Assembly: GCF_037081715.1 (NCBI RefSeq)
Contig: NZ_JAZDDH010000001.1
Span: forward strand, 992,001 to 1,056,000
From: Halalkalicoccus sp. CG83
Lineage (GTDB): Archaea > Halobacteriota > Halobacteria > Halobacteriales > Halalkalicoccaceae
Length of the DNA: 64,000 bases
Direction: 5' to 3'
In this document: positions 1,834-29,519 of the stretch, in pieces
Layout: each line of letters opens with the position of its first letter
How positions within the stretch are numbered: the first letter of the stretch is position 1
Translations under genes and position numbers: made by a program
The notes under the pieces: generated by a model
Told to the model about the DNA's origin: nothing
Databases searched by the model: none
The model's input: only the letters and a program-made list of their open reading frames with translations

Positions 1834-3552
1834 TCACTCGCCGAGCGAGAACACCACGAGCCGGTCCCCGCGAGGCCCGCGGCCGACGAACCCGCTGCCG
1901 CCGACCTGGATCGCGACGTACTGCTTCTCGGTGCCGGGATCGTACCAGCTCACCGGGTCGCCGCTGACGGCCTTGTCGCTGACGTCGAACTCCCAGAGAC
2001 GCTCGCCGTTCTCGCCGTTGTACGCGATCATGTTCCCGTTCTGCGTGCCGGCGAACAGCAGGCCGGTCGCGGTGGTCATCGTCCCGCCCCAGAGGTAACG
2101 GTCGCTGTCGATCCAGTCGCGCCACGCCACCTTCCCCGTCGCGGGGTCGACGGCGACGATCGCGCTGATGTGGCCGTTGTACTCGTCGGGGATCAGCTCC
2201 TCGTCGGGTTCGACGTCGACGATCCCGCCCCAGAACTTCTCGCCGGGGTTGTACTCCTCGTTTCGCCAGTAGATCTCGTGGGGCGTGTTGAGCGTCTTAT
2301 GATAGCAGAGGCCAGTCTCCGGGGAGTAGGCCGGCGGCTGCCAGTCGTGGCCGCCGAGCAGCCCCGGCAACATGACGTAGTCGCGTTCCTCCTCGACGTG
2401 GGGGACCATCGTCATCATGTTGACCTGCTGGGTCATGGGCTGGCCCCGCACGAGGAGCTTCCCGGTGTCGGGGTCCATCGTGTAGGTCCAGGAGGTCTTC
2501 CCGCCGTTGTAGACGACGTCCTGCTTCAGATCGAGGTGGTCGATCTCCAGGTCGCGGATGATCATCCGCTGGTGGGCCGAGTCGTAGTCCCAGATGTCGT
2601 GGGCGGACTCCTGGTGGACCCACTGGATCTCGCCGGAGTGGGGATCGACACAGAGCGTCGAGCAGGTGTTGCGGTTCGGGCCCGGTCGGACGGTCCCGTT
2701 GAAGTCCGGGCTGGGGTTGCCGACGTTGTAGTAGAGCAGTTCGCGTTCGGGGTCGAACGTCGCCGTCATCCAGTTGGTCCCGCCGGACTGCTTGATGCTG
2801 TCGCCGACGTACTCCTCCTCGGGGCAGTTGTTGAGCCGCCAGAGCTCCTCGCCGGTCTCGGCGTCGAACGCGCAGTGGAAGCCCCGGACGCCGAACTCGC
2901 CGCCCGCGCTGCCCGTAAAGAGCATCCCGTTCCAGACGATCGGTGCCCACGTCGCCGAGTACCCCTCCTTGTGGTCCGCGGTGCTCGCGTACCACACCTC
3001 CTCGCCGGTGTACCGGTCGAGCGCCTGCACCCCTGAATCCAGCGACGTCATGTAGATCTTGTCGTTCCAGACCGCGACGCCGCGGTTGTTGTCGTCACAG
3101 CACAGCACCGCGTCGTCGGGAGCGGCGAACGTGTAGCTCCAGAGCACCTCCCCCTCGCGGGCGTCGATCGCCTTCACGTGGCTCGGGCCGTTGGTCTGGT
3201 ACATGATCGGCGGGTCGCCCGGCACGATCAGCGGGCTTCCCTCCATACTGGAGTTCGCTCCCACCTCCATCTCGTACTCGAGCTCGAGGTCAGCGACGTT
3301 CTCCTTCGTGATGGTGTCGCAGGGTGTGTAGCGGTGGGCCTCGTAGTTCTTGGAGAACATCAGCCAGCTCTCGGGGTCCTCGCCGGACTCGTCGAGCATC
3401 TCCTGGGTGACGTCGAACCGGGGGATCCGGTCGGTATCGGTCTGATGGAGAACGGACTCGTCGGGTGCGTTGAACACCTGATAGCCCAGCTCGGTCTCCT
3501 CGACGATCGTGTCGCTCGCGGCCTTGATTGCCTTGTCGTCCTCGATTGCCAT
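1834..3552 (-). CDS. PQQ-type quinoprotein dehydrogenase (methanol/ethanol family)
   Basis: 572 residues, an eight-bladed propeller of the quinoprotein alcohol dehydrogenase type with repeated tryptophan-docking motifs (DAREGEVLW, DAETGEELWR, DPHSGEIQW, DPATGKVAW). Seen directly: the vicinal disulfide pair Cys151-Cys152 in CCDDNNRG, the metal-ligand Glu219 in GGEFGVRG, Asn279 in VGNP, and the catalytic Asp322 in WDYD. Asp324, two residues after the catalytic Asp, is the residue that separates lanthanide-using XoxF-type enzymes from calcium MxaF-type enzymes. There is no signal peptide, although relatives are periplasmic. A GGAGAGGAG Shine-Dalgarno supports the start at 3552. It is the second gene of an operon, 26 nt after the unknown gene at 3579-4496. 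Substrate unknown. Confidence 0.88.
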   Translation of the reverse strand: MAIEDDKAIKAASDTIVEETELGYQVFNAPDESVLHQTDTDRIPRFDVTQEMLDESGEDPESWLMFSKNYEAHRYTPCDTITKENVADLELEYEMEVGANSSMEGSPLIVPGDPPIMYQTNGPSHVKAIDAREGEVLWSYTFAAPDDAVLCCDDNNRGVAVWNDKIYMTSLDSGVQALDRYTGEEVWYASTADHKEGYSATWAPIVWNGMLFTGSAGGEFGVRGFHCAFDAETGEELWRLNNCPEEEYVGDSIKQSGGTNWMTATFDPERELLYYNVGNPSPDFNGTVRPGPNRNTCSTLCVDPHSGEIQWVHQESAHDIWDYDSAHQRMIIRDLEIDHLDLKQDVVYNGGKTSWTYTMDPDTGKLLVRGQPMTQQVNMMTMVPHVEEERDYVMLPGLLGGHDWQPPAYSPETGLCYHKTLNTPHEIYWRNEEYNPGEKFWGGIVDVEPDEELIPDEYNGHISAIVAVDPATGKVAWRDWIDSDRYLWGGTMTTATGLLFAGTQNGNMIAYNGENGERLWEFDVSDKAVSGDPVSWYDPGTEKQYVAIQVGGSGFVGRGPRGDRLVVFSLGE

Positions 3553-3578: not shown

Positions 3579-4496
3579 TTATCTCGCCCGGCTGGGCGCG
3601 CGTTTCTCCTCGGTGATCCAGAAGACGTCCTTCATCATCTCCTCCTGGCTGACGATCAGTGTCGCCGCACCGGCGGTCAGTGCCGCGGTTAGCTGGGCGT
3701 TCGTGAGCGAGGCCTCCTCGCCCGCCGCGATCCCTCGAGCCGCCCGCGCCATCAGATACAGTCCGCCGAGCATCTCCTCGGCGTGCCAGTTGGCGTCGTC
3801 CAGTATCGTCTCCGTGATCAGGATCTCCTTCCGCCAGAGGTGTTCGTCGAGCGCGTTGAGCCACAGCAAGGCCCCGCCCATCGCGCGCTGGTGCAGCGGC
3901 GGGACGTAGTCGACGTTGAACTCGACGCCGTCGGGGATCTCCCTGGTCGGCGTCCACCGCGAGAGCCGCGTGTTGTTGTTCACCACGTTCATCATCATCG
4001 CGGTGCGCTCGTGGTCGTCGAATCCACACTTCTCGAGCGCCTCTGTCAGCGGCTCGGCCTGGACGAGTTCGTGGGCGGTGTGTTCGACGTGCTCGGGCGT
4101 GAACGCCGGCAGGTTCGCCTCCACGCTCTCGAAGAACCCCACCTCCTCGAGGTGGTCGTAGACGAGCCAGAACGGATCGAGGAGCTCCCGATAGAGCTCC
4201 TCGGCACCCTCCTCACCCCGCGGGACGCCGACCTCGCGGATCGACGCCAGTCGTTCGAACCGTCTCGGCATCTCCTCCAGTGCCTCCTCCAGAAGCTCGC
4301 CGGCGAGTTTCCCCGAGAGGTCGCTCCGGATCGCCTCCCCCATCGAGACGAGCTCCGGAGCGGTCTCGGTTCGCACCTCCGCCCGGATCTCATCGAGTGT
4401 CGGACCGTCGCCGCCCGTCGGCCGATCGTACCCGAAGGCCGACGCCAGCTCCCGTCGGTCGTCGGACGTGAGCTCCGGTGTGTGTCTTTGTGACAT
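3579..4496 (-). CDS. Unrecognised helical protein, operon partner of the quinoprotein dehydrogenase
   Basis: 305 residues, not recognised. It looks mostly alpha-helical and soluble, with acidic surfaces and no signal peptide. Possible metal or active-site positions are clustered: HVEHTAHELV near residue 152, an invariant-looking HERTAMMMNVVNNNTRLSRW segment, LHQRAMGGALLWLNALDEHLW, and NWHAEEMLGGLYLMARA. Repeated His/Glu pairs on helices resemble four-helix metal-binding folds, but that is only an impression. It is the first gene of the operon, 26 nt before the PQQ dehydrogenase, with a promoter at about 4534-4543. It could be a partner, maturation factor or electron acceptor of that enzyme (inference). 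Confidence 0.85.
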   Translation of the reverse strand: MSQRHTPELTSDDRRELASAFGYDRPTGGDGPTLDEIRAEVRTETAPELVSMGEAIRSDLSGKLAGELLEEALEEMPRRFERLASIREVGVPRGEEGAEELYRELLDPFWLVYDHLEEVGFFESVEANLPAFTPEHVEHTAHELVQAEPLTEALEKCGFDDHERTAMMMNVVNNNTRLSRWTPTREIPDGVEFNVDYVPPLHQRAMGGALLWLNALDEHLWRKEILITETILDDANWHAEEMLGGLYLMARAARGIAAGEEASLTNAQLTAALTAGAATLIVSQEEMMKDVFWITEEKRAPSRAR

Positions 4497-5855: not shown

Positions 5856-6284
5856 TCACTCCACGTCGTCGTGGGTGAGCAGGTCGCGCTCGACGCCCGC
5901 CGGGAGGGGATCGTAGGTGATCACCTCGAGGAGGTTGCCGTCCGGATCGAGGAAGTAGAACCCCTCGAACTCGCCCCAGTCGTACGGCCCCTGTTTGGGG
6001 AACTGATCGTCGAGGATCTCGATTAACGCCTCGTAGCGGTCCCGATCGGTCGCGAACGCGACGTGTGCCTTATCGAGCGGGTGCTCGAGACCCGTTTCGT
6101 CCCAGCCCTCGGCCCGACCGGTCTCGGCGAGCGTGACGACGGTCTCGCCCGCCCGGAACATCGCGTGCTCGCCCTGGAAGTCGCTGGGCGGCCGGACCAG
6201 TTCGAGTTCGAGGCGATCCCGGTAGAACTCGTAGCAGGCGTCCAGATCGTCGACGTCGACGTTGATGTGGTCAACGGCGTCCAT
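5856..6284 (-). CDS. VOC (glyoxalase/bleomycin-resistance fold) family protein
   Basis: 142 residues with the paired beta-alpha-beta-beta-beta modules of the VOC superfamily. It opens DHINVDVDDLDACYEFYRD, has a mid-protein HVAFATD and ends FYFLDPDGNLLEVITYD. His6, the His of HVAF and Glu of LLEV are likely metal ligands. Enzymes of this fold include glyoxalase I, extradiol dioxygenases and fosfomycin-resistance proteins; the substrate is not predictable here. The gene ends 3 nt from the stop of the convergent gene at 5852 and starts 97 bp from the divergent AOR gene. Confidence 0.85.
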   Translation of the reverse strand: MDAVDHINVDVDDLDACYEFYRDRLELELVRPPSDFQGEHAMFRAGETVVTLAETGRAEGWDETGLEHPLDKAHVAFATDRDRYEALIEILDDQFPKQGPYDWGEFEGFYFLDPDGNLLEVITYDPLPAGVERDLLTHDDVE

Positions 6285-6380: not shown

Positions 6381-8042
6381 ATGCGCCACGCCGAGGGACC
6401 GCTGCTCACGGTGGACCTGAGCGACCGAACCGTCGACGAGACGGGCTGTAGCGACGTTCTAGGGGCCTTCATCGGCGGACGCGGGGTCGGGACGAAGCTC
6501 GCATACGACCGGCTCCCGTTCGACGCCGATCCCCTCGGAGAGGAGAACCGGCTGTTCCTCACCACGGGCCCGCTCCAGACCTCGCGAACGAGCTTCACCG
6601 GCCGCATGAGCGCCACCGCCCTCTCGCCGCTGACGGGCGGGCTGCTCTCCTCGAACGCCGGGGGCTTCCTCTCGCGTAACTTCGCCGCGACGGGCTACGC
6701 CGCCGTCGAACTCGTCGGCGCGAGCGACGAGCCCGCGGCGATCCACGTCCGCGACGACCGCGTCGAGTTCGAACCGGTGCCCGGACTCGAGGGCGCGCTC
6801 GTCTCCGAGGTCACCGAGTACGTACGCGAGACCCACGGCCTCGACGCCGAGCACGTCGCCTGCGTCGGGCCGGCGGGCGAGAATCTCGTTAGGTTCGCCT
6901 CGATCATGACGAGCGAGCACCGGACGTTCGGTCGCGGCGGACTGGGCGCCGTGCTCGGCTCGAAGAACGTGAAGGCGATCACCTTCGACGGCGATCTCGA
7001 GCCATCGGTCGAGCTTCCCGACGCGGCGACGGAGATCCACCGCGAAGCGGCGACCGCCGATCACGTGATGAAGCGCCAGGGGACCGCCGGCCTGACCGCG
7101 TTCGCGAACGAGGTGGGGGCGCTTCCGACGCGCTACTTCTCCGAGCTCTCGTTCGAGGGCGCCGGTGAAATCGACGGCGACGCGGTCGAGACGAGGAAGG
7201 TCGGGAAGGGGACGTGCTCGCAGTGTGCGTTCGCGTGCAAGCTCCCCACCAGGGACGAGAGAACGGGTCTCGAGACCGAGGGACCGGAGTACGAGACGGT
7301 GATGGCGTTCGGCTCGAACGCCGGCGTCGGCGATATCCGGGCGGTGATGAAGTCGAACGACCTCTGTGACGAGTTCGGGCTCGACACCATCTCCTGTGGC
7401 GACGTCGTCTCGGCGTATCTCGCGAGCGAGGACCGGTTCGGCGACGCCGATCTCGTCCACGAGACGGTCGAACGGATCGCGTACCGCGAGGGTATCGGCG
7501 ACCGGCTGGCCGAGGGGATCGACCGCGTCCACGAGGAGCTCGGCGTGGAGAACTGGACGGCCAAGGGGATGGAGTTCGCCGCCCACGACGGCCGGGCGCT
7601 CAACGGCCAGGCGCTCGCGTTCGCGACGGCCAACCGGGGGGCGGACCACCTCTACGGCAGCATGTACACCCACGAGTACCCCCTCGTCTCCCCCGACGCG
7701 GCGTTCGATCCCGAGGGGTTCGAGGGAAAGCCCGAACGGTTAGTGAGAAAGGAGAACCACAACGCTCTGCTCGACTCGGCCATCGTCTGTCGGTTCTCGC
7801 GCGACGTCGTGAGCGAGGATCGGCTCGCCGCCCTGCTCGATGCCGACTACGAGGCGCTGCTCGCGGTCGGGGAACGGGTCGTGGACCTGGAGCGGCGGTT
7901 CAACAACGAGCGAGGTTTCGACCGCGTCGACGACTCGCTGCCCTACGACCTGCCGGGGTTCGAGGCGGCGCTCTCGGAGTACTACTCGATGCGGGGATGG
8001 GGCGACGACGGTACCGTCCCGCCCGGCCGGGTCGACGGATAG
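6381..8042 (+). CDS. Aldehyde ferredoxin oxidoreductase family protein (short form)
   Basis: 553 residues with AOR domain order: an N-terminal beta domain with LTVDLSDRT and a GGRGVGTKL pterin-binding turn, then SFTGRMSATALSPLTGG, FGRGGLGAVLGSKNVKAI, and the 4Fe-4S ligands Cys279, Cys282 and Cys286 (CSQCAFAC), with a fourth candidate Cys470. Family members bind a bis-pterin tungsten (rarely molybdenum) centre and oxidise aldehydes to acids, reducing ferredoxin in the cytoplasm. This copy is about 90 residues shorter than the AOR at 12735 and is clearly a different subfamily. It ends 2 nt from the convergent cupin gene, with three substrate-binding-fold genes beyond. The true substrate is unknown. 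Confidence 0.92.
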   Translation: MRHAEGPLLTVDLSDRTVDETGCSDVLGAFIGGRGVGTKLAYDRLPFDADPLGEENRLFLTTGPLQTSRTSFTGRMSATALSPLTGGLLSSNAGGFLSRNFAATGYAAVELVGASDEPAAIHVRDDRVEFEPVPGLEGALVSEVTEYVRETHGLDAEHVACVGPAGENLVRFASIMTSEHRTFGRGGLGAVLGSKNVKAITFDGDLEPSVELPDAATEIHREAATADHVMKRQGTAGLTAFANEVGALPTRYFSELSFEGAGEIDGDAVETRKVGKGTCSQCAFACKLPTRDERTGLETEGPEYETVMAFGSNAGVGDIRAVMKSNDLCDEFGLDTISCGDVVSAYLASEDRFGDADLVHETVERIAYREGIGDRLAEGIDRVHEELGVENWTAKGMEFAAHDGRALNGQALAFATANRGADHLYGSMYTHEYPLVSPDAAFDPEGFEGKPERLVRKENHNALLDSAIVCRFSRDVVSEDRLAALLDADYEALLAVGERVVDLERRFNNERGFDRVDDSLPYDLPGFEAALSEYYSMRGWGDDGTVPPGRVDG

Positions 8043-8044
8043 TC

Positions 8045-8449
8045 TCAGTCGTCCGACTCGGCCCGCCCGGGTTCGACCTCGGATTCGGCGTTGGTCTCGG
8101 TCTCGCGAGCGGCCGTTCCCCAGTCGGGCTCGGAGCGCGGCGGGCTGAGGACGCCGACGCCGACGGCCGGCTCGTCGCCGCGGTTCTCCGCGCCGTGGAG
8201 CTCGTCGCTCATGAACGCGTAGGAGTCGCCCGGCCGGAGTTCGCGCTCCTCGTCCTCGAGAACCGCGGTGAGCACGCCGCTGACGACGAACCCGATCTGC
8301 TCGTTGTGGTGGCGGTGGGCCGGCAGCGTCGCGCCGGGCTCGATGCGCCAGAACTTCATCGAGCTCCGCGCACCCGTCGCGAGGTCCGCGAGCCGGACGC
8401 CCTCGACGACCTCGTCGAACTCCCGATCGGGTTCGGTAACGTGCTCCAT
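8045..8449 (-). CDS. Cupin-domain protein
   Basis: 134 residues, a single cupin barrel. Motif 1 is GATLPAHRHHNEQIGFVVSG (His-x-His-x-x-Glu-like metal site, about residues 38-58), and motif 2 is LRPGDSYAFMSDELHGAEN with the final His ligand. A charged tail of about 30 residues follows and is probably disordered. Single-domain cupins are small metalloenzymes or ligand sensors. It is transcribed divergently from the three substrate-binding-fold genes across a palindromic promoter region and runs convergently into the AOR, so it may belong to the same pathway. No helix-turn-helix is present, so it is not a regulator by itself. Confidence 0.88.
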   Translation of the reverse strand: MEHVTEPDREFDEVVEGVRLADLATGARSSMKFWRIEPGATLPAHRHHNEQIGFVVSGVLTAVLEDEERELRPGDSYAFMSDELHGAENRGDEPAVGVGVLSPPRSEPDWGTAARETETNAESEVEPGRAESDD

Positions 8450-8481
8450 GAGTGTACGTAGCAACGGCGTGGTGGCGGCGA

Positions 8482-8512
8482 CTAATAAAGGTTTAGCGTT
8501 AACGTTTATTAG
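8482..8512. promoter_or_regulatory. Palindromic divergent promoter/operator
   Basis: A perfect inverted repeat: CTAATAAA (8482-8489) and TTTATTAG (8505-8512) with a 15-nt spacer that itself contains the palindrome CGTTAACG (8497-8504). Each arm, read outward, is a TATA box: the right arm ends 21 bp before the ATG at 8534, and the left arm is about 33-40 bp before the cupin ATG at 8449. One dimeric regulator bound here could shut or open both transcription units. Confidence 0.6.
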
Positions 8513-8533
8513 GGTTCGCCCGCAGGCGGTAGT

Positions 8534-9433
8534 ATGGCAGGCGATACCAGGGTACGGCTGTTCCACCTCCCGTTCTCGTTCATGCTGCCCCAGCGGGTCG
8601 CGAGCGAGCGAGGCTACTTCGCAGACGAGGGACTCGACGTCGAACTCGTCGAGCGCGACCGGGAGGACGTCGACTGGAAGTACATCCCGGCCGAGGAGAC
8701 GCTCACCGGAGATCACGGCGTCGACCTCTACCCGATCTGTAAGTGGGAGTCGATCAAGCGGACCTGGGACATGAACGACGGCCACGTCGTCGCGAAGGGG
8801 ACGTTCGCCGACCAGCCCTACACGGTCTACGTCCGACCCGAGAGCGGGATCGAGTCGCCAGCGGATCTGGCGAACGTCCCCGTCGGGGTGAACGAGCGGA
8901 CGGGACAGGAGTACACCGTCGTCCGGGCGCTCGAGGAGCACATGTCACCGGAGGACGTGGCGATCGAACACCAGGGGATGCCCACCGACCGGCTGCGCGC
9001 GCTCCGCGACGGGGAGTGCGAGGCGATCTCGCTGCTCGAGCCCCAGAGCACGCTCGCCGAACACCTCGGCTTCGAGCCCGTCCTCGAGTTCGAGAACCAC
9101 ATGGGGATCGTCGGCGCGACCGACCTGGAGGGCGAGGCCCTCGAGGCGTTCATGCGGGCGTACGACCGGGCGGTGCGGACGATCAACGACGAACCCGACG
9201 CCTTTCGCGACGACTACCTCTCGATGCTGGAGATGGACGCGAAGGTCGCGCCCGATCTGTTCGAGGCGGTCGACCGCGGGGAGCTGCTCCGGGAGATCGA
9301 GGTCCCGAGATACGAGGCGCCCGAGCCCGCGGATCGCGAGGAGATGAGCGCCCACCTCGAGTGGATGAAGCGCCGACAGCTCATCGACGGGACCGCCGAC
9401 GTCGACGTGATCGTGGGACCGGCCGTCCAATGA
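8534..9433 (+). CDS. Substrate-binding-protein-fold protein 1 (NMT1/THI5-like), no signal peptide
   Basis: 299 residues. It opens LFHLPFSFMLPQRVASERGYFADEGLDVELVE, the signature of the TauA/SsuA/NMT1-THI5 superfamily, and has a second-lobe SPADLANVPVGVNERTGQEYTVVRALEEH with a ligand-loop HMGIVGATDLEG. There is no signal peptide, lipobox Cys or Tat motif, so the protein should be cytoplasmic, unlike an ABC transporter receptor. It is the first gene of a three-gene operon with 4-nt ATGA overlaps. No permease or ATPase gene lies nearby. Cytosolic enzymes with this fold exist (THI5, MqnA/MqnD, dihydroxyphthalate decarboxylase), so an enzymatic role is plausible. The THI5 CCCFC motif is absent. 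Confidence 0.85.
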   Translation: MAGDTRVRLFHLPFSFMLPQRVASERGYFADEGLDVELVERDREDVDWKYIPAEETLTGDHGVDLYPICKWESIKRTWDMNDGHVVAKGTFADQPYTVYVRPESGIESPADLANVPVGVNERTGQEYTVVRALEEHMSPEDVAIEHQGMPTDRLRALRDGECEAISLLEPQSTLAEHLGFEPVLEFENHMGIVGATDLEGEALEAFMRAYDRAVRTINDEPDAFRDDYLSMLEMDAKVAPDLFEAVDRGELLREIEVPRYEAPEPADREEMSAHLEWMKRRQLIDGTADVDVIVGPAVQ

Positions 9434-10419
9434 GCATCACCGATCAACAGGCGGCGATCGACGCCGTCCACGACGATCGAGAGGGACTGCCCGTCATGCG
9501 GGCGCGTTTCGAACACAACGGTAGTCCGCGGTACATGCTCTATACGATGAAGCGTCTGGGGCTCGATCACGAGCACGGCTTTCACCTCGACGTCGAACTC
9601 GTCTCGGACGCGCTCGAGGGCGGCATGGAGACCGTCGAGGCGCGTCTCCAGGACGGCGACGCCGACCTCATCGACATCGACTACATCTCGACCGCCCGCG
9701 AGCGCGCCGAGGGTGCGGGGATCGTCGCGATCCACCCCTACGGCCGGACCGTCGGGGGGCTCGTCGCGCCCGACGACACGGAGATCGAGGGACTCGAGGA
9801 CCTCCCTGGCCACCGGATCGGCGTCGTCCGCCGGCTCGACAAGAACTGGATCCTGGCGCGGGCGGCGTGTCGCGAGTTCCACGGCTTCGACCCCGACGTC
9901 GAGGCCACGCCGGTCGAGGCCGGCTCGAAGGTCGGGCTGACCGAGCTGCTCCACGACGGCGAGGTCGACGCGATTCTCCAGTTCTGGCCGATCGTTCCCG
10001 AGATCACCGAACGGGGGCCGTACCACGAGGTGTTACCGGTGTCGCGGCTGGTCCAGCGGCTCTCGGGCACGGACAACCGCCTCCCGATCTCGACGTTCCT
10101 CACGAGCGAGGAGTTTCTCGCGGAGAACCCCGAGACGGTCGAGGGGTTCAGAGGGGCGTACCGCGACGTGGTCGACCGTCTCGTCGAGGAGGACGAGCTC
10201 TGGGAGGCGGTCGGCGAGAGGCTGATGACCTACGACGACCCCGCCGTGGTCCGGGCGGTTCGGGACGGCTGGCGCGACATGGTCGTGCGCGACTGGGACC
10301 GCGAGACGATCGAAGGGATGGAGCAGCTGTTCGATCACCTCCTCGACGTCGCCGGCGCCGACGCGCTCGGCGTCGACCGCATCCCCGAGGGGACGTTCAG
10401 GCTGGAGGTCGACCCATGA
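9430..10419 (+). CDS. Substrate-binding-protein-fold protein 2, no signal peptide
   Basis: 329 residues, second gene of the operon; its ATG overlaps the previous stop by 4 nt. Two-lobe periplasmic-binding fold: RARFEHNGSPRYMLYTMKRLGL opens the first lobe, DADLIDIDYISTARERAEGAG the ligand cleft, and EGLEDLPGHRIGVVRRLDKNWILAR the second lobe. It is divergent from its two neighbours, so this is not a recent tandem duplication. There is no export signal. It resembles the 'ABC substrate-binding / 4,5-dihydroxyphthalate decarboxylase-like' grouping in overall layout (family-level impression only). Substrate unknown; likely to form a complex or sequential pathway with the flanking two proteins. Confidence 0.8.
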   Translation: MSITDQQAAIDAVHDDREGLPVMRARFEHNGSPRYMLYTMKRLGLDHEHGFHLDVELVSDALEGGMETVEARLQDGDADLIDIDYISTARERAEGAGIVAIHPYGRTVGGLVAPDDTEIEGLEDLPGHRIGVVRRLDKNWILARAACREFHGFDPDVEATPVEAGSKVGLTELLHDGEVDAILQFWPIVPEITERGPYHEVLPVSRLVQRLSGTDNRLPISTFLTSEEFLAENPETVEGFRGAYRDVVDRLVEEDELWEAVGERLMTYDDPAVVRAVRDGWRDMVVRDWDRETIEGMEQLFDHLLDVAGADALGVDRIPEGTFRLEVDP

Positions 10420-11387
10420 ACGAGGTCACGTTCCAGCTCAACTGGGAGCCTAACGGGTTCCAGGCGCCGTACTTCCTCGCGCGGGCACGGGGCTACTACG
10501 AGGAGGAGGGCCTCGACGTACAGTTCGTCGAGGGCCACGGCTCGCCGTTCGCCGCCGAGCAGGCCGCACGCGGCCGCGCCGACGTCGGGCTGGCCGGGGC
10601 GAGCGCCGTCCTCGCCAAGCAGAGCGAGGGGTTCGAGCCGCTCGCGGTCGCGGCGGTGACGAAGAAGACCCCGGCCGCGGTCTACACCCTTCGAGACGTC
10701 TTCGGCGAGCCGCTCGAGGACCCCACACAGCTCGCCGGGCGGACGGTCGCGCCCTCGGCGACGAAGACGCGCATCCTCGCCGCCCAGTTCCTCGAGGACG
10801 CCGGCGTCCGCGACGAGGTCGAGCTGCTGGACGTCGACCCCAACACGCACCACCGCGTCCAGCACAAGCTGCTCGACGGCTCGGTCGACGCCGCGGTCGG
10901 CGTCGTCACCAACGGACTGGAGCTCGAGCGCGAGCACGACCGGATCGCCGACGAGCTCCCGATCGGCGAGTACCTCGGCGTCTACGGGATGACGCTCGTG
11001 ACGAACGCGGAGTTCGCGAACGAGAACGCGGGGACCCTCCGGGGCTTCCTCAGGGCGACCGCCCGCGGGTGGGCAGCGGCGACGGAGGACCCCGACGCGG
11101 CGGTCGACGCGCTGATCGAGCGCAACGCGACGCTCGAGCGCCGTCGGTGGATCGAGACGCGGAAGTTCGAGGCCGCCGCGAACGACCTCCAACTCACCGA
11201 GCACGTCCGCGAGGACGGCTGGGGGGCCCACCGCGAAGAACGGTGGCGGCGGCTCGGCTCGATGCTCTCGGATACCGACCTGCTCGACGGACCGATCGAT
11301 CCCGACTCGGTCTGGACCAACGCCTATCTCGATCGCGAGTCCGAGATCGTTCGCGGCTACGCCGACCGGATCGGCCGAGTCGGATAG
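10416..11387 (+). CDS. Substrate-binding-protein-fold protein 3 (NMT1/THI5-like), no signal peptide
   Basis: 323 residues, third gene of the operon, again with a 4-nt ATGA overlap. It is the closest of the three to canonical NMT1/THI5 proteins: EVTFQLNWEPNGFQAPYFLARARGYYEEEGLDVQFVEG, then AAEQAARGRADVGLAGASAVL and QLAGRTVAPSATKTRILAAQF. Thiamin-pyrimidine-binding receptors (ThiY) and the pyrimidine synthase THI5 both look like this. There is no signal peptide and no THI5 cysteine cluster. An HMP/thiamin link is therefore possible but unproven. Absence of ThiX/ThiZ-like transporter genes in the neighbourhood argues against a simple uptake system. Confidence 0.85.
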   Translation: MNEVTFQLNWEPNGFQAPYFLARARGYYEEEGLDVQFVEGHGSPFAAEQAARGRADVGLAGASAVLAKQSEGFEPLAVAAVTKKTPAAVYTLRDVFGEPLEDPTQLAGRTVAPSATKTRILAAQFLEDAGVRDEVELLDVDPNTHHRVQHKLLDGSVDAAVGVVTNGLELEREHDRIADELPIGEYLGVYGMTLVTNAEFANENAGTLRGFLRATARGWAAATEDPDAAVDALIERNATLERRRWIETRKFEAAANDLQLTEHVREDGWGAHREERWRRLGSMLSDTDLLDGPIDPDSVWTNAYLDRESEIVRGYADRIGRVG

Positions 11388-12734: not shown

Positions 12735-14672
12735 ATGACTGATTTGGGCGGCTTTCAGAACCACCTCGCACGCATCGACCTCACGGACGGCGACGTCACC
12801 TACGAGGACGTCGACGACGAGGACGCGAAGAAGTACATCGGTGCTCGCGGCCTCGGCGTCAAACACGTCTTCGACCAGGGTCCGGACGTCGATCCCGAGA
12901 GTCCGGAGAACCTGCTGGCGTTCATGAACGGCCCCCTCACGGGAACCCAGGCCGTCATGAGCGGACGCATCGCCATCTGTACGAAATCGCCGCTGACGGG
13001 CACCGTCACCGACAGCCACCACGGCGGCTGGTCGGGCGCCCGGCTCAAGTGGGCCGGCTTCGACGGCCTGCTCGTCGAGGGCGAGTCCGACGAACCGGTC
13101 TACGCCTACGTCGAGGACGGCGAGGTGGAGCTGCGCGACGCCTCCCACCTCACCGGCAAGGGCGTCCACGAGACCCGCGACGAACTCGGCGAGGAGCTCG
13201 ACGGCTCGTTCGGCAAGAACATGTCGATCATGGCGATCGGTCCCGGCGGCGAGAACGGCGTGAAGTACGCCTGCATCATGAACGAGGACGACCGCGCCTC
13301 GGGCCGCGGCGGCACCGGCTGCGTGATGGGCAACAAGAACCTCAAGGCAGTCGTCATCAAGTCCGGCACCAAGATGCCCAAGCCCGCCGACCAGGAGACG
13401 TTCATGGAGGGCCACCAGCAGGCGATGCAGGTGATCCAGGAGTCCGACGTCACCGCGCCCAACGAGGGCGGGCTCTCGATGTACGGCACGAACGTCCTGA
13501 TGAACATCACCGAGGAGATGGACGGCCACCCCACGAAGAACGGCCGCTACACCTCGGGAATCTCCTACAACAACGAGGAGCAGGGCGGCGAGACCGTCAT
13601 CGACGCCGAGCGCATCAGCGGCGAGAACGTCCGCGAGAACATCCTCGTCGACGAGCCGACCTGTCATTCCTGTCCGGTCGCGTGTAAGAAGGAGGTCGAG
13701 GTCCAGACGATGCACAAGGGCGAGGACATGAACGTCCGAATGGAGTCCTTCGAGTACGAGTCGGCGTGGGCGCTCGGCACCAACTCGCTGAACGACGACC
13801 GCGACAAGATCGCGGTGATGATCGACCGCTGTAACGACCTGGGGATCGACACCATCGAGACGGGCAACATCCTGGCGATGGCGATGGAGGCCACCGAGAA
13901 GGGCTACCTCGACGACCTCGGCGAGGGCATCGACTGGGGCGACGAGGAGGAGATGATCGAGATGATCAAGCGGATCGGCAACCGCGAGGGCGAACTCGCG
14001 GACATGCTCGCGGAGGGCCAGGAGGGCTTCGCCGACGAGATCGACGGCCACGACTGCCGCCTCGACGTGAAGGGCCAGTCGATTGCGGCCTACGATCCCC
14101 GCTGCATGAAGGGGATGGGCATCGCGTACGCCACCTCGAACCGCGGGGCGTGCCACCTGCGCGGCTACACGCCCGCCGCGGAGATCCTCGGCATCCCCGA
14201 GAAGGTCGACCCCTACGAGTACGAGGGCAAGGGCGAGCTGACGGCGACGTTCCAGGACCTCCACGCGATCTCGGACAGCTTCGACATCTGCAAGTTCAAC
14301 GCCTTCGCGGAGGGGATCGAGGAGTACGTGCTCCAGTACAACGGGATGACCGGCCTCGACGTCAGCGAGGACGAGCTGATGGAGTCGGGCGAGCGCGTCT
14401 ACAACCTCGAGCGCTACTACAACAACCTCGCGGGCTTCGACGGGAGCGACGACTCCCTCCCGGAGCGGTTCCTCGAGGAGGGCGGCATGCCCGGCCAGGG
14501 CGCCTCGGAGGGCGAGTACTGCGAACTCGACGAGATGAAGGAGGAGTACTACGAGCACCGCGGCTGGGTCGACGGCGTCGTCCCGGACGAGAAGCTCGAG
14601 GATCTCGGCATCGACGTCGGACCCGGCACCGGCGTTTCAACCGGTGATTCGCCGGCGCCCGCCGACGACTGA
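12735..14672 (+). CDS. aor: Aldehyde ferredoxin oxidoreductase (AOR)
   Basis: 645 residues, full-length AOR: LARIDLTDGDVTYEDV and KKYIGARGLGVKHVF at the N-terminus, then GRIAICTKSPLTGTVTDSHHGG, SGRGGTGCVMGNKNLKAV, the 4Fe-4S ligands Cys310, Cys313 and Cys317 (CHSCPVAC), and Cys519 in DICKF. The family holds a bis-pterin tungsten site and oxidises aldehydes with ferredoxin as acceptor. The C-terminus has a short Gly/Ser/Ala/Asp tail. The gene is monocistronic with a T-tract terminator just after it. It is the more conventional of the two AORs in the window and probably the housekeeping one. Confidence 0.95.
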   Translation: MTDLGGFQNHLARIDLTDGDVTYEDVDDEDAKKYIGARGLGVKHVFDQGPDVDPESPENLLAFMNGPLTGTQAVMSGRIAICTKSPLTGTVTDSHHGGWSGARLKWAGFDGLLVEGESDEPVYAYVEDGEVELRDASHLTGKGVHETRDELGEELDGSFGKNMSIMAIGPGGENGVKYACIMNEDDRASGRGGTGCVMGNKNLKAVVIKSGTKMPKPADQETFMEGHQQAMQVIQESDVTAPNEGGLSMYGTNVLMNITEEMDGHPTKNGRYTSGISYNNEEQGGETVIDAERISGENVRENILVDEPTCHSCPVACKKEVEVQTMHKGEDMNVRMESFEYESAWALGTNSLNDDRDKIAVMIDRCNDLGIDTIETGNILAMAMEATEKGYLDDLGEGIDWGDEEEMIEMIKRIGNREGELADMLAEGQEGFADEIDGHDCRLDVKGQSIAAYDPRCMKGMGIAYATSNRGACHLRGYTPAAEILGIPEKVDPYEYEGKGELTATFQDLHAISDSFDICKFNAFAEGIEEYVLQYNGMTGLDVSEDELMESGERVYNLERYYNNLAGFDGSDDSLPERFLEEGGMPGQGASEGEYCELDEMKEEYYEHRGWVDGVVPDEKLEDLGIDVGPGTGVSTGDSPAPADD

Positions 14673-14726: not shown

Positions 14727-16034
14727 ATGAACCCCGACGGAGCCATCGGCGTGCCCGGAACGCCGGCGTGGACCCGCGAGCAGGCAACGCGGGTCGAGCG
14801 AACCGACGACGTCGTCGCACCGGTCATCTACCCGCCTCAGGAGGACGACGCCCCGGACGTCCACGGCTGGGACACCTGGGTGCTCCGCGAGCGCGACGGC
14901 ACCATCGCCACGGTCGACGGCTGGCGTGTGATTCTCTCGCTCACCGCGCCCAGCGACATGCTCCCCGGTAAGCGCCACGACGTCGCCGAGATCCGCTACT
15001 TCTACTCGCGGGACGGGAAGAACTGGATCGACGGCGGCCCCGTTTTCGACCGCGAGAACTGCCTCGGCTCGCGTCAGTGGGCCGGTTCAGCCCTGCTCGA
15101 CGACGACGGGCAGGTGTACGTCTTCTACACCGCGGCCGGACGCGCAGTCGAGGAGGAGCTCTCCTATCACCAGCGCCTCGCGGTCGGTGCTGGCGGGACC
15201 GTCGAGACGGACGCCGACGGTCTCTCGATCGAGGGCTCCTGGGAGCACGAGGTCCTCGTCGAGCCCGACGGCGAGCGCTACGAGCGCGAGGAGCAGTACC
15301 GCGGGATGATCTACACCTTCCGCGACCCCTGGTTCTTCGAGGACCCCGCGACCGGCGAGACCTGGCTGCTGTTCGAGGCGAACACGCCCGTCCCGGAGGG
15401 GAGCGACGTCTGCGGCGGTGATCCCGTTCAACAGGAGTTCAACGGCAGCATCGCCACCGCCCGCTCCGAGACGGGCGACCCGACCGACTGGACCCTCGAG
15501 GATCCGCTGCTCGACGCCGTCTGCGTCAACCAGGAGCTCGAGCGTCCACACGTCCTCGTCCGCGACGGTCGGTACTACCTCTTCTTCTCGAGCCACGACC
15601 ACACGTTCGCGCCCGGGCTCGAGGGATTCGACGGGCTCTACGGCTTCGTCGCCGACTCGTTTCGCGGGGAGTACCGGCCGCTCAACGGCTCGGGACTCGT
15701 CGTCACCAACCCGGCGAACGCGCCCTACCAGGCGTACTCCTGGCTCGCCTTCCCCCACGGCGAGGAGCTGCTCGTGAGCGGCTTCTTCAACTACTACGAC
15801 CTGGGACCGCTCACGATCGACGACGTCGGCCACCTCCCGCGCGAGGAACAGCTCGCGAAGTTCGGCGGCACCCTTACGCCGACGCTGCGTCTGCGGCTCG
15901 AGGGCGACCGAACGCGGATCGTCGGCACGCTCGAACACGGTCACATCCCGCTCGAGGACGAGAAGCTCCCGCCGCTGGACCACGACCGCGTCGGCGACCG
16001 CACCGCCGACGATCGGTACCGCCGCCGGTTCTGA
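14727..16034 (+). CDS. GH68 fructosyltransferase (levansucrase/inulosucrase type)
   Basis: 435 residues, a five-bladed GH68 propeller. The catalytic triad is visible: nucleophile Asp49 in GWDTWVL, transition-state stabiliser Asp200 in FRDPWFF, and acid/base Glu272 in ELERPHVL; the SRQWAGSAL segment is the sucrose-binding WSGSA equivalent. The enzyme splits sucrose and transfers fructose to a growing fructan or to water. No signal peptide, Tat motif or lipobox is present, so either export is non-classical or the enzyme works inside the cell. It is convergent with a GH32 fructosidase (11-nt gap), making a fructan/sucrose locus. Product linkage (levan or inulin) cannot be told from the sequence. 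Confidence 0.92.
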   Translation: MNPDGAIGVPGTPAWTREQATRVERTDDVVAPVIYPPQEDDAPDVHGWDTWVLRERDGTIATVDGWRVILSLTAPSDMLPGKRHDVAEIRYFYSRDGKNWIDGGPVFDRENCLGSRQWAGSALLDDDGQVYVFYTAAGRAVEEELSYHQRLAVGAGGTVETDADGLSIEGSWEHEVLVEPDGERYEREEQYRGMIYTFRDPWFFEDPATGETWLLFEANTPVPEGSDVCGGDPVQQEFNGSIATARSETGDPTDWTLEDPLLDAVCVNQELERPHVLVRDGRYYLFFSSHDHTFAPGLEGFDGLYGFVADSFRGEYRPLNGSGLVVTNPANAPYQAYSWLAFPHGEELLVSGFFNYYDLGPLTIDDVGHLPREEQLAKFGGTLTPTLRLRLEGDRTRIVGTLEHGHIPLEDEKLPPLDHDRVGDRTADDRYRRRF

Positions 16035-16045
16035 GGCCGCCCCCC

Positions 16046-18172
16046 TTACTCTCCTGCCTCCCACGCCGAGCCGAGCTCCCAGATCTCGAACTCCTCGAAC
16101 ACGGCGCTGCCGCCGCGTGCGTACGCCGAGAGGCCGTCGCTGTCGGGCCGTGTCGGGTAGACGCGCGTCGAGAGACAGCGTCGCTCGTTGACGAACAGTT
16201 CGAGGGTCGAGCCGTCGAGAAACGCGCGCAGTTCGAGCGGTCGCTCGAGGTCGTCGATCGCCATCCGCCGGGGGTCGCTCGCCGCGGACTCGTCGAGGCT
16301 CGAAGTCTCCCGGTCGACGATCAGCTCCTCGTCGGTGAGTCTGATGGGGGTGCGTTCGACGTCGTCGGGCGACTCGAAGACGCCGATCCCCGCCTCCTCG
16401 GCGTCGCTGTGGAGCGTCGCACGCAGTTCGAGCGATCGCCCGCGAACGTCGAACTTTCGTTCCTCGTCGGCGACGTCGAGGTCGACGTGGCGGGCATGCG
16501 AGCGACGAAGCGCCTCGAGTTCGGGCGCCGGACGCTGTCTGAGCTCGCCGTCCTCGGCGAAGAGCTCGCGGGGGATCGAGAGCGTCCCCGACCAGCCCGC
16601 CTCCCACTGGGTGCGTTCGTCGCGCGTCTCGAGGAGCCACCCCCACAGCAGGTAGCGGTCGTCGCCGAACAGCGACTGGGGGGCGTAGAGGTCGCCGTGA
16701 TCGAGCAGTGCCCGCTTCTCGGCCTCGAACCGGCCGTCCTCGACGCTGCCGAGGAAGTAGATCACGTCCTCGTAGTTCGAGACGTGGAGCAGCCTCGTCT
16801 CCCCGAGGTCCAGCAGTTCCGGACACTCCCACATCCCGCCTGCGCCCTCCCAGTCGCCGACCAGCAGCGGCCCGGCGTACTCCCAGTCGCTCAGCGTCTC
16901 GCCGGTGTAACGGAGCACCGCTCCGCCCTCGCCGTCGATTCCCGCGCCGATCAGCTGCTGCCAGCGGCCGTTCTCGTGCCAGACGCAGTGATCGCGGAAC
17001 TCCGCCTCCCAGTGGTCCGAGGCGATCACCTCGAGATCCGCGGGTGGCTCGGGGATGATGGGGTTGTTCGGGTCCTTCTCCCACGTTCGCAGTCCGGGGT
17101 CGGACGTGGTCGCCCGGCAGGGAAGCTGGCTGCGGCCCCGACCCCCCGTGTACAGCAGCGTCGGGGTGCCGCCGTCGTCGATCGCACAGCCCGACCAGCA
17201 GCCGTCGCGGTCGGGGCCGTCGGGCGAGGGCGAGAGCGCAACCGGTTCGTCCTCCCAGTGGACGAGGTCGTCGCTGACGGCGTGGCCCCAGTGAATCGTT
17301 CCGTGCATCGGCCCGCCAGGGTTGTACTGGTAGAAGACGTGATAGCGGTCGTTCCACTCGATCAGCCCGTTGGGGTCGTTGAGCCAGTTCGCGGGCGGCG
17401 TGAGGTGGTACCGTGGCCGCAGCGGATCGTCGGCGAGGCGTTCGCGCATCGCGCTCAGCCCCTCGCTCGATCGCGGCTCGGGCGTTCCGACGTGATCGCC
17501 GCGCGCGAGCACCGCGAGCAGGCTCCCGACCAGCCGGGAACGGTTGGTCGCCGGCTCCCCGTCCGCGGGGTCGTCGAACGCGAGCGCGCTCCCGGCGCCC
17601 AGCACCGACCCCTCGCCGACCGTCCAGGAGACCAGCGGCAGCCGGTGGAAACCGTCCTCCTCGCCGCGGATCGCCCCCGCGAGCGGCTCGCCGCGGTCGG
17701 GCAGGACCGTTTCGTAGCGGGCGTAGGGAGCTTCCCGGCCGGGTTCGCAGGTCGGAACGCGAAGGCCGTCGAACTCGTCGAACGCCGTATGGTCGGCGTA
17801 GAGCGACTTCAGCAGATAGCCCGTCGGCACCTCGGCCTCCTCGACTCCGGTCGCGTCGGGGGCGATCGAGTCGACGCCGAGCTCCGGAACGGCAGAGAGG
17901 GCACGCAGGCTCAACAGGAGGCCGCCGCCGCGCTCGACGTATTCGTGGATCGCGTCGGCGGCGGCGCCGATCTCGGGCTCCTCGAGGGCGGCGTCGCGGT
18001 GCCACCAGAGCGCGTCGTACCGGTCGAGGTCGATGCTCCCGCTCGCGACCTCCGGGAGCGACACCCGTTCGACGACGGGGGCGACGGCCGTACACCACTC
18101 GTGGGCGGCGCGTTGTTCCGGGGAGAGGGCGGCCGCGTGGAGGAATCCGATACGCACGGCGGAGTCGAACAT
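16046..18172 (-). CDS. GH32 beta-fructosidase with fused N-terminal amidotransferase-like domain
   Basis: 708 residues. Residues about 1-230 form a class I glutamine-amidotransferase/ThuA-like alpha/beta domain (VRIGFLHAA, DRYDALWWHRDAAL, YVERGGGLLLSLRAL). Residues about 255-708 are GH32: nucleophile Asp266 in NWLNDPNG, Asp394 in FRDH (usually RDP), acid/base Glu449 in ECPEL, and a C-terminal beta-sandwich ending FEEFEIWEL. It hydrolyses terminal fructose from sucrose or fructans. No signal peptide is seen. A TATA element at 18194-18201 lies 22-29 bp before the ATG at 18172, so this start is preferred over 18187. Convergent with the GH68 gene. Confidence 0.93.
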   Translation of the reverse strand: MFDSAVRIGFLHAAALSPEQRAAHEWCTAVAPVVERVSLPEVASGSIDLDRYDALWWHRDAALEEPEIGAAADAIHEYVERGGGLLLSLRALSAVPELGVDSIAPDATGVEEAEVPTGYLLKSLYADHTAFDEFDGLRVPTCEPGREAPYARYETVLPDRGEPLAGAIRGEEDGFHRLPLVSWTVGEGSVLGAGSALAFDDPADGEPATNRSRLVGSLLAVLARGDHVGTPEPRSSEGLSAMRERLADDPLRPRYHLTPPANWLNDPNGLIEWNDRYHVFYQYNPGGPMHGTIHWGHAVSDDLVHWEDEPVALSPSPDGPDRDGCWSGCAIDDGGTPTLLYTGGRGRSQLPCRATTSDPGLRTWEKDPNNPIIPEPPADLEVIASDHWEAEFRDHCVWHENGRWQQLIGAGIDGEGGAVLRYTGETLSDWEYAGPLLVGDWEGAGGMWECPELLDLGETRLLHVSNYEDVIYFLGSVEDGRFEAEKRALLDHGDLYAPQSLFGDDRYLLWGWLLETRDERTQWEAGWSGTLSIPRELFAEDGELRQRPAPELEALRRSHARHVDLDVADEERKFDVRGRSLELRATLHSDAEEAGIGVFESPDDVERTPIRLTDEELIVDRETSSLDESAASDPRRMAIDDLERPLELRAFLDGSTLELFVNERRCLSTRVYPTRPDSDGLSAYARGGSAVFEEFEIWELGSAWEAGE

Positions 18173-28029: not shown

Positions 28030-28851
28030 TTACGCCTCCGTCGTCCCGAGGACGGCGGGATCGAGCTGATCGGCGTCGGTGAAGACGTAGCCGCTGACGA
28101 GGTACGTGCTCGTCATGCTGGTCAGCCCGGCGGCCGAGAAGAGCATCAGCATGATGACGAACTGGTACTGAGCGGCGTAGATCGGGTTGGCGCCGGCGAT
28201 GATCATCCCGGCCATCATCCCCGGAATCGAGACGATGCCGAGGCTCTTCACCCGATCGACGATCGGGATCAGCGCGCCGTAGACGCTCGTCGAGACGTAC
28301 GCCTCGACGGCCCGCTCGGGCGGGGCACCGAGGCTCAACACCGCCTCGATCTCCTCGCGGTTCGACTCGAGCTCGCCGACGAATCGGTCCAGCGCGAGCG
28401 AGTTGGTCTTCATCGACATCGCGATGACCATGCTCCCGACGACGATCAGGTCGCGCATCGTCGTCTCGATCGCGCCCGCGAGGCTCATCGCGACGATCAC
28501 CGATCCGGTGCCGAACGCGATCGAAACCACCGAGGTGCGGAACGCGCCCGGGATCTGCGCCCCCCGCTCGTGAGAGATCCAGGCCGCAGCGCCGATCATG
28601 AACGCCAGGACGACGCCCGCCCACGCGAGGTGCGCGTTCAACAGCAGCCCGATCACCGAGCCCGCGGCGAGGATCTGGACGAACCCCCGTCCTACCGCTG
28701 TCCCGGTCTCGTGGTGGAACTCGAAGCGGCGGACGGCGGCGACCGCGAGCACAACGACGACGAGGGCGACGCTGAGGCCGATCTGGGCGAACCCCCGGAG
28801 CACGGTCGAATCGACCGACTGGCTCGCGAGCCGTTCGACCGCCGCGATCAC
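28030..28851 (-). CDS. FetB/YbbM-type ABC permease
   Basis: 273 residues with about seven transmembrane helices and the UPF0014 signature segments GRGFVQILAAGSVIGLLL, SMKTNSLALDRFVGELESNREEIEAVLSLGAP, and SIPGMMAGMIIAGANPIYAAQYQ. E. coli FetAB exports iron. Here the pair sits beside a siderophore synthetase, so involvement in iron homeostasis is likely by family and context. The start overlaps the FetA stop by 4 nt (ATGA), making a coupled pair. The upstream ATPase gene is at 28848. Confidence 0.9.
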   Translation of the reverse strand: MIAAVERLASQSVDSTVLRGFAQIGLSVALVVVVLAVAAVRRFEFHHETGTAVGRGFVQILAAGSVIGLLLNAHLAWAGVVLAFMIGAAAWISHERGAQIPGAFRTSVVSIAFGTGSVIVAMSLAGAIETTMRDLIVVGSMVIAMSMKTNSLALDRFVGELESNREEIEAVLSLGAPPERAVEAYVSTSVYGALIPIVDRVKSLGIVSIPGMMAGMIIAGANPIYAAQYQFVIMLMLFSAAGLTSMTSTYLVSGYVFTDADQLDPAVLGTTEA

Positions 28852-29519
28852 GGCGCCACCGTCCGCGGCACTCCCACCCTCGTCACCCGTCCGTCCTCGA
28901 AGCGTGCGACCCGGTCGCCGAGGCGTCGGGCCTGCTCGACGTCGTGCGTGACCACGACGCAGGTCAGCTCGTAGGCGGAGATGAGGTCGCCGAGAAACCC
29001 CTCGATTCGCCGTTCCGTCTCGGAGTCGAGGCTCGAGGTGGGCTCGTCGAGCAGGAGGACCTCGGATTCGTTCGCCAGGGTGCGGATGATCGAGACGCGC
29101 TGGCGCTCGCCGCCCGAGAGCCGCTCGATCTCCCGGTCGGCGTAGCCGTCGAGGTCGACCGCGGCGAGCAGTCGGTCGATCCGCTCCTCGTCGACCGGCT
29201 CGTCACGGATCCGAAACGCGGTGGTGGCGTTCTTGAGGACGGTGCCGTCGCGCAGCGCCGGTCGCTGTGGGATCAGTCCGATCCGTCGGCGTAGTGCCTG
29301 GGGATCGATCTCGCGATAGTCCGTCCCGTCGAGGTAGACGGTGCCGCTCGTCGGCTCGTCGAGCCGGTTGAGCAGGCGCAGAAACGACGACTTCCCGGCC
29401 CCCGAGGGACCGATGATCGCAAGCACCTCCGACTCGGGGACGGCGAGCGAGACGTCCTCGACGATGGACTCGCCGTCGACGACCCGGGTAAGTCGCTCCG
29501 TCTCGAGCTTCGGCTGCAT
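28848..29519 (-). CDS. FetA-type ABC ATP-binding protein
   Basis: 223 residues. Walker A GPSGAGKSS (about residue 37), Q-loop IGLIPQRPAL, signature LSGGERQR, Walker B LLLDEPTSSLD and an H-switch THD are all present. It drives the FetB-like permease encoded by the overlapping gene at 28030. The size and motif spacing match FetA/YbbL ATPases. It is the first gene of the pair; transcripts may continue into the siderophore synthetase (66-nt gap after FetB). Confidence 0.92.
   Translation of the reverse strand: MQPKLETERLTRVVDGESIVEDVSLAVPESEVLAIIGPSGAGKSSFLRLLNRLDEPTSGTVYLDGTDYREIDPQALRRRIGLIPQRPALRDGTVLKNATTAFRIRDEPVDEERIDRLLAAVDLDGYADREIERLSGGERQRVSIIRTLANESEVLLLDEPTSSLDSETERRIEGFLGDLISAYELTCVVVTHDVEQARRLGDRVARFEDGRVTRVGVPRTVAP

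Follow-up and report, generated by a model that had tools for sequence, protein, structure and literature searches.

What do three adjoining proteins of the NMT1/THI5 substrate-binding-protein (SBP) fold do in a haloarchaeon when they are leaderless, have no transporter gene next to them and stand beside a cupin and an aldehyde oxidoreductase (AOR)-family enzyme? The locus lies in a window of 64 kb, the whole stretch of DNA analysed, and a sequence-only reading of it had proposed an unknown pathway in which the three SBP-fold proteins act with the AOR and the cupin. The features of the window that bear on this question are as follows.

1834-3552, minus strand: PQQ-dependent dehydrogenase (PF01011) with vicinal CC and a W-D-Y-D lanthanide-type site; signal peptide absent
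3579-4496, minus strand: F6, predicted to be all-helical, partner gene of the dehydrogenase; no Tat-type signal on the window copy
5856-6284, minus strand: VOC/glyoxalase-superfamily protein, a conserved core member
6381-8042, plus strand: short AOR-family oxidoreductase of 553 aa (AFOR_N and AFOR_C), accessory
8045-8449, minus strand: Cupin_2 protein by domain match, divergent from P1
8482-8512, no strand: putative palindromic element between the cupin and P1 genes, covering TATA-like boxes on both strands
8534-9433, plus strand: P1, leaderless NMT1/THI5-fold protein of 299 aa
9430-10419, plus strand: P2, leaderless PqqT homologue of 329 aa
10416-11387, plus strand: P3, leaderless ThiY/THI5-like protein of 323 aa

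The coordinates and domain matches bear out the earlier description of three adjoining SBP-fold genes: the P1/P2 and P2/P3 junctions are both 4-nt ATGA overlaps, and all three products match PF09084 (NMT1/THI5) at E values of 3e-11 for P1, 5e-9 for P2 and 6e-34 for P3. Mutual BLASTP gave E 0.95 for P1/P2, E 0.04 for P2/P3 and a single 28-residue stretch for P1/P3, in agreement with the view that the triplet is not a recent triplication. The proteins had also been described as leaderless, with neither a Tat motif nor a lipobox, and this holds for their orthologues, since an RR motif is present in 0/59 P1, 0/61 P2 and 0/53 core P3 sequences and N-terminal hydrophobicity is low in a simple test (not SignalP). 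A missed signal peptide, which had been named as a possible refutation, was rejected on the same motif and hydrophobicity tests. No permease or ATPase matching the cluster was found in the 64-kb window; the sole ABC pair found there, at 28030-29519, is UPF0014/FetAB-like and was rejected as the matching transporter. P1-P3 are thus unlike the SBPs of ABC importers, having neither a signal peptide nor an adjoining permease or ATPase in the window. The window further contains a second, longer AOR-family protein (12735-14672, 645 aa), whose family occurs in 6/53 cluster neighbourhoods, and two adjoining proteins at 14727-18172 that are glycoside-hydrolase-like by eye, with an N-D-P-N-G motif in the one at 16046-18172.

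Comparison of neighbourhoods across haloarchaea confirmed that the cluster is conserved, its core being present in 51-53 of 53 distinct loci, and showed the conserved unit to be VOC–cupin–P1–P2–P3. At these loci P2 was found in 52, the divergent cupin in 51, P3 in 51, the VOC gene in 50 and the AOR gene in 13. The cupin therefore stands as a partner, as had been supposed, whereas the AOR, which does lie beside the cluster in the window, was rejected as a core partner because it adjoins the cluster in only 13/53 loci. Two features had been overlooked at first, namely the VOC gene in the conserved core and the PQQ dehydrogenase with its partner F6 just upstream. Orthologues of P1 (61-77% identity) occur in ~40/292 haloarchaeal genomes, in genera including Natrinema, Natrialba, Natronococcus, Halomarina, Haloplanus, Halorientalis and Halalkalicoccus. 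At one locus (L057) P2 and P3 are missing from the gene calls, yet both were recovered by search, indicating a gene-calling failure, and in two genomes of one genus (g25) P3 is not beside P1-P2. A palindromic element similar to that of the window occupies the cupin–P1 gap in most of the 53 loci; none was seen by eye upstream of F6. One P1 copy (G118:C3:527476-528357) carries an in-frame TGA and is perhaps decaying.

A sequence search of the PDB with P2 found 9b1u/9ooz at E ~2e-25, and with a P2-family profile these entries were the only matches at E<=0.001 (E 9e-31); their identity as PqqT was taken from the fold search (Foldseek) on the P1 model. The titles of the PqqT entries (9b1u, 9b1v and 9ooz) describe the protein bound to PQQ, as in 9b1u, or to PQQ plus Gd3+, and a PQQ-bound Y161W variant. 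The homology extends over nearly the whole length at only ~30% identity. In the alignment L-D-K-N-W is common to PqqT and P2, and Tyr161-Trp162 of PqqT aligns with Phe185-Trp186 of P2, so that both conserved motifs of the P2 family, L-D-K-N-W and F-W, have counterparts in PqqT. The reported affinity of PqqT for PQQ corresponds to a Kd of 50 nM (PMC12124388, PMC12828617), and a variant K142D is named in a review. Eight annotated bacterial relatives of P2 were inspected, and each of them has PQQ dehydrogenases, quinoprotein-associated genes or pqqABCDE as neighbours and an ABC ATPase gene immediately downstream or one gene further on. P2 therefore resembles PqqT of Methylorubrum extorquens and related SBPs in sequence, in the aromatic-W pair and in the association with PQQ dehydrogenase genes, but it lacks a signal peptide (0/61) and a dedicated permease alongside, and it is translationally coupled with two more SBP-fold proteins and accompanied by the cupin and VOC genes. 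Judged from its sequence, P2 is a homologue of the PQQ-binding PqqT and would itself be expected to bind PQQ. Since P2 is homologous to PqqT, the formerly unknown pathway acquires PQQ as its likely subject; the SBP-fold and cupin part of that proposal stands and the AOR part does not.

The cluster is also seen in the company of quinoproteins. Eighty haloarchaeal genomes were compared, 40 of them carrying P1 and 40 lacking it, and a PQQ dehydrogenase of the D-Y-D type is present in 39/40 cluster-positive vs 1/40 cluster-negative genomes, where the 39 include one genome (G163) with a split gene and a PF01011-only match, and 38 have a protein matching that of the window at E<=1e-60. F6 is likewise distributed 39/40 vs 1/40, and P2 orthologues 40/40 vs 0/40; Fisher p values for the genome-level associations are 3e-20 or less. 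Because the sampled genomes are related, the genus-level association (12/13 vs 1/24, p 9e-8) and the contrasts within two genera (g6 and g13) are the safer evidence. The exceptions are G037, which has the cluster and no PF01011 protein, and G047, which has the dehydrogenase and no cluster.

The window dehydrogenase lies ~5 kb upstream of the cluster, and its nearest solved relative is the quinoprotein ethanol dehydrogenase 6zcv/6zcw, PedH of P. putida, whose activity is lanthanide-dependent. The residues of the metal and PQQ sites vary little or not at all among the dehydrogenases: E219, N279, D322 and D324 of the metal site, as well as W261, R157 and K352, are invariant in 36/36, and the CC pair is present in 35/36. 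The PF01011 propeller, the CC pair, the E/N/D of the metal site and the extra D of D-Y-D are shared with PedH (described in PMC12997753) and XoxF; in contrast to these, the window enzyme is archaeal, signal-less, as are the dehydrogenases of the window type generally, and partnered by F6, and it does not reach the curated cut-off of NCBIfam TIGR03075 (400.9 vs 480.05 bits). The PQQ dehydrogenases of heterotrophic marine Thaumarchaeota (PMC7300363) are also archaeal quinoproteins, some with D-Y-D, but they have no CC pair and often carry signal peptides, and a PQQ synthase is reported there. A PDB search with F6 found no match below E 1. A Tat-type twin-arginine motif is found in 7/45 F6 homologues (L079, L119, L124, L128, L130, L131 and L132), and in these cases F6 adjoins a dehydrogenase without any signal.

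The next question is where the PQQ would come from. In a search for standard PQQ synthesis genes by way of PqqC and PqqE, PqqC was found in 0/80 haloarchaeal genomes, while the same search detected it in two bacterial control records, and PqqE gave no match above a cut-off that no positive control exceeded. As there is no sign of standard synthesis genes, uptake from outside is suggested. In a candidate importer block, genes for two permeases and an ATPase accompany those for an SBP with a lipobox, ~39% identical to P3, and for an HTH protein whose sensor domain (34%) is of the P3 family; the block adjoins the cluster at 8 loci and a PQQ dehydrogenase at others. Counted as full-length or clearly closer hits, the importer lipoprotein SBP is present in 22/40 cluster-positive vs 1/40 cluster-negative genomes, and the HTH-SBP regulator in 36/40 vs 2/40. 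Importer and regulator are both of the P3 family and co-occur with the cluster; the earlier description of a cluster without a transporter consequently holds locally and fails for the wider system. In the genome of the window, the HTH-SBP regulator lies ~22 kb upstream, and the importer lipoprotein SBP was not found.

P1 has the conserved motifs Y-P-[IV]-C-K-W-E-S and N-x-R-T-G-Q-E-Y, and its predicted structure is confident (pLDDT 90), with the invariant C-K-W-E-S at a strand-helix junction of the model. Foldseek neighbours of this model are SBP-fold proteins, among them ThiY, THI5, SsuA, PqqT and DszB. Distant leaderless relatives of P1, from other haloarchaea and a coral-associated bacterium, occur in ABC operons that already encode an SBP, which fits a cytosolic partner of an importer. 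P1-like proteins at L061, L062, L064, L065 and L066 (family f53) are leaderless, show 26-28% identity and head ABC operons with a proper NMT1_2 SBP. P3, the ABC lipoprotein SBP and the HTH-SBP regulator are members of one family. The PDB sequences closest to P3 are those of ThiY, THI5 and an SBP with bound thiamine; the fold of the HMP synthase THI5 and of ThiY is common to P1 and P3, with significant sequence similarity for P3. In a by-eye alignment with THI5, whose catalytic residues are Lys62 and His66, P3 has A-G-A-S-A-V-L where THI5 carries these two residues. In the cupin H45, H47, Q51 and H85 are invariant, and the VOC protein has invariant metal-type ligands.

Collectively, homology and co-occurrence give good support for a system-level link between the cluster and PQQ, and we consider it rather likely that the cluster is a cytosolic module for PQQ acquisition and delivery serving haloarchaeal quinoprotein dehydrogenases. 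PQQ, or a PQQ-metal complex, would be taken from outside, in about half of the genomes via the co-occurring ABC importer, and P2 would hold it in the cytosol. P1 and P3 may bind or process related ligands, the HTH-SBP protein of the P3 family may sense the ligand, and the cupin and VOC proteins, with their metal-type ligand sets, could preserve the quinone or convert it. Together with F6, the dehydrogenase would then fold in the cytoplasm in its loaded form, and a Tat signal on F6, where there is one, would direct export of the folded complex with the cofactor in place. Such loading before export is proposed as the reason why the PQQ binder would be cytosolic here and periplasmic in Gram-negative bacteria. 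The model is built on the P2–PqqT homology, co-occurrence, synteny, the absence of PqqC, the active-site residues of the dehydrogenase and the Tat motif of F6, from which we infer PQQ binding by P2, the direction of transport, the ligands of P1 and P3, the roles of the cupin and VOC proteins and export as a complex. Counting against it are the low identity of P2 to PqqT, the dehydrogenase-free genome G037, the lack of the importer SBP in the window's genome, the resemblance of P3 to thiamine-pyrimidine proteins, the two g25 genomes without P3 beside P1-P2 and a Tat-exported plastocyanin next to the dehydrogenase in 13 loci. The results point to haloarchaea that metabolise PQQ and perhaps rare earths as well. 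No description of haloarchaeal PQQ or lanthanide enzymes was found in the literature searched. They would place PQQ binding and cofactor loading in the cytosol rather than the periplasm, make it testable how quinoproteins mature when the enzyme folds before export, and offer a first clue to the ligands of leaderless proteins with the SBP fold, which are usually annotated as transporter parts.

The failure to find PqqC and PqqE in the 80 genomes could also be explained by a non-canonical, PqqABCDE-independent route that yields PQQ or a quinone resembling it, in which P1, P3, the cupin and the VOC protein would be enzymes and P2 would carry the product to dehydrogenases that receive it in the cytoplasm and are partly exported by Tat. 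SBP-fold enzymes do exist, THI5 and DszB being among the structural neighbours of P1, and the position of the invariant C-K-W in the P1 model and the metal-type ligands of the cupin and VOC proteins suit such a role. This route is nonetheless unlikely, as P3 is without the catalytic Lys/His of THI5, importer and regulator fit uptake better, and a biosynthetic precedent is lacking. The D-Y-D site of the dehydrogenase, the crystallisation of PqqT with PQQ and Gd3+, and the import of lanthanide by ABC systems of ped/lut loci (PMC6839425, PMC7391723) speak for a cluster that handles lanthanide or lanthanide-PQQ/chelate complexes instead of PQQ itself; given that PQQ is the reported high-affinity ligand of PqqT, we regard this as improbable.

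Two further explanations leave PQQ aside. An AOR-cupin-SBP pathway unrelated to PQQ would account for the 13/53 loci at which the AOR adjoins the cluster and for the AOR gene of G037, the sole cluster genome without the dehydrogenase, but the AOR is missing at 40/53 loci and the near-perfect association is with the PQQ dehydrogenase, which makes this pathway very unlikely. Synthesis or salvage of the thiamine pyrimidine (HMP) by THI5/ThiY-like proteins would be in line with the nearest PDB sequences of P3; however, ThiC is found in 27/40 cluster-positive vs 25/40 cluster-negative genomes, so that P3 is unlike THI5 also in having no link to this thiamine gene, and the cluster co-occurs with the PQQ dehydrogenase instead. 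With no ThiC association and the THI5 residues missing, thiamine was rejected as the main reading and its probability is slight indeed.

Several observations around the dehydrogenases accompany the preferred PQQ module. A Tat-signal plastocyanin-domain protein (family f16; L047:11064-12170 and 12 other loci) lies beside the PQQ dehydrogenase, which suggests extracellular electron transfer, though the window-type enzyme is signal-less. Upstream of the window (L059, G000:C1:972001-992000) there is a second dehydrogenase-F6 pair with the HTH-SBP regulator, together with a Cdc48-type AAA ATPase, a ferredoxin and two cation-exchanger family genes. Na+/Ca2+ exchanger family proteins (family f9, e.g. 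L040:16138-17355) recur near the modules and possibly serve in metal supply.
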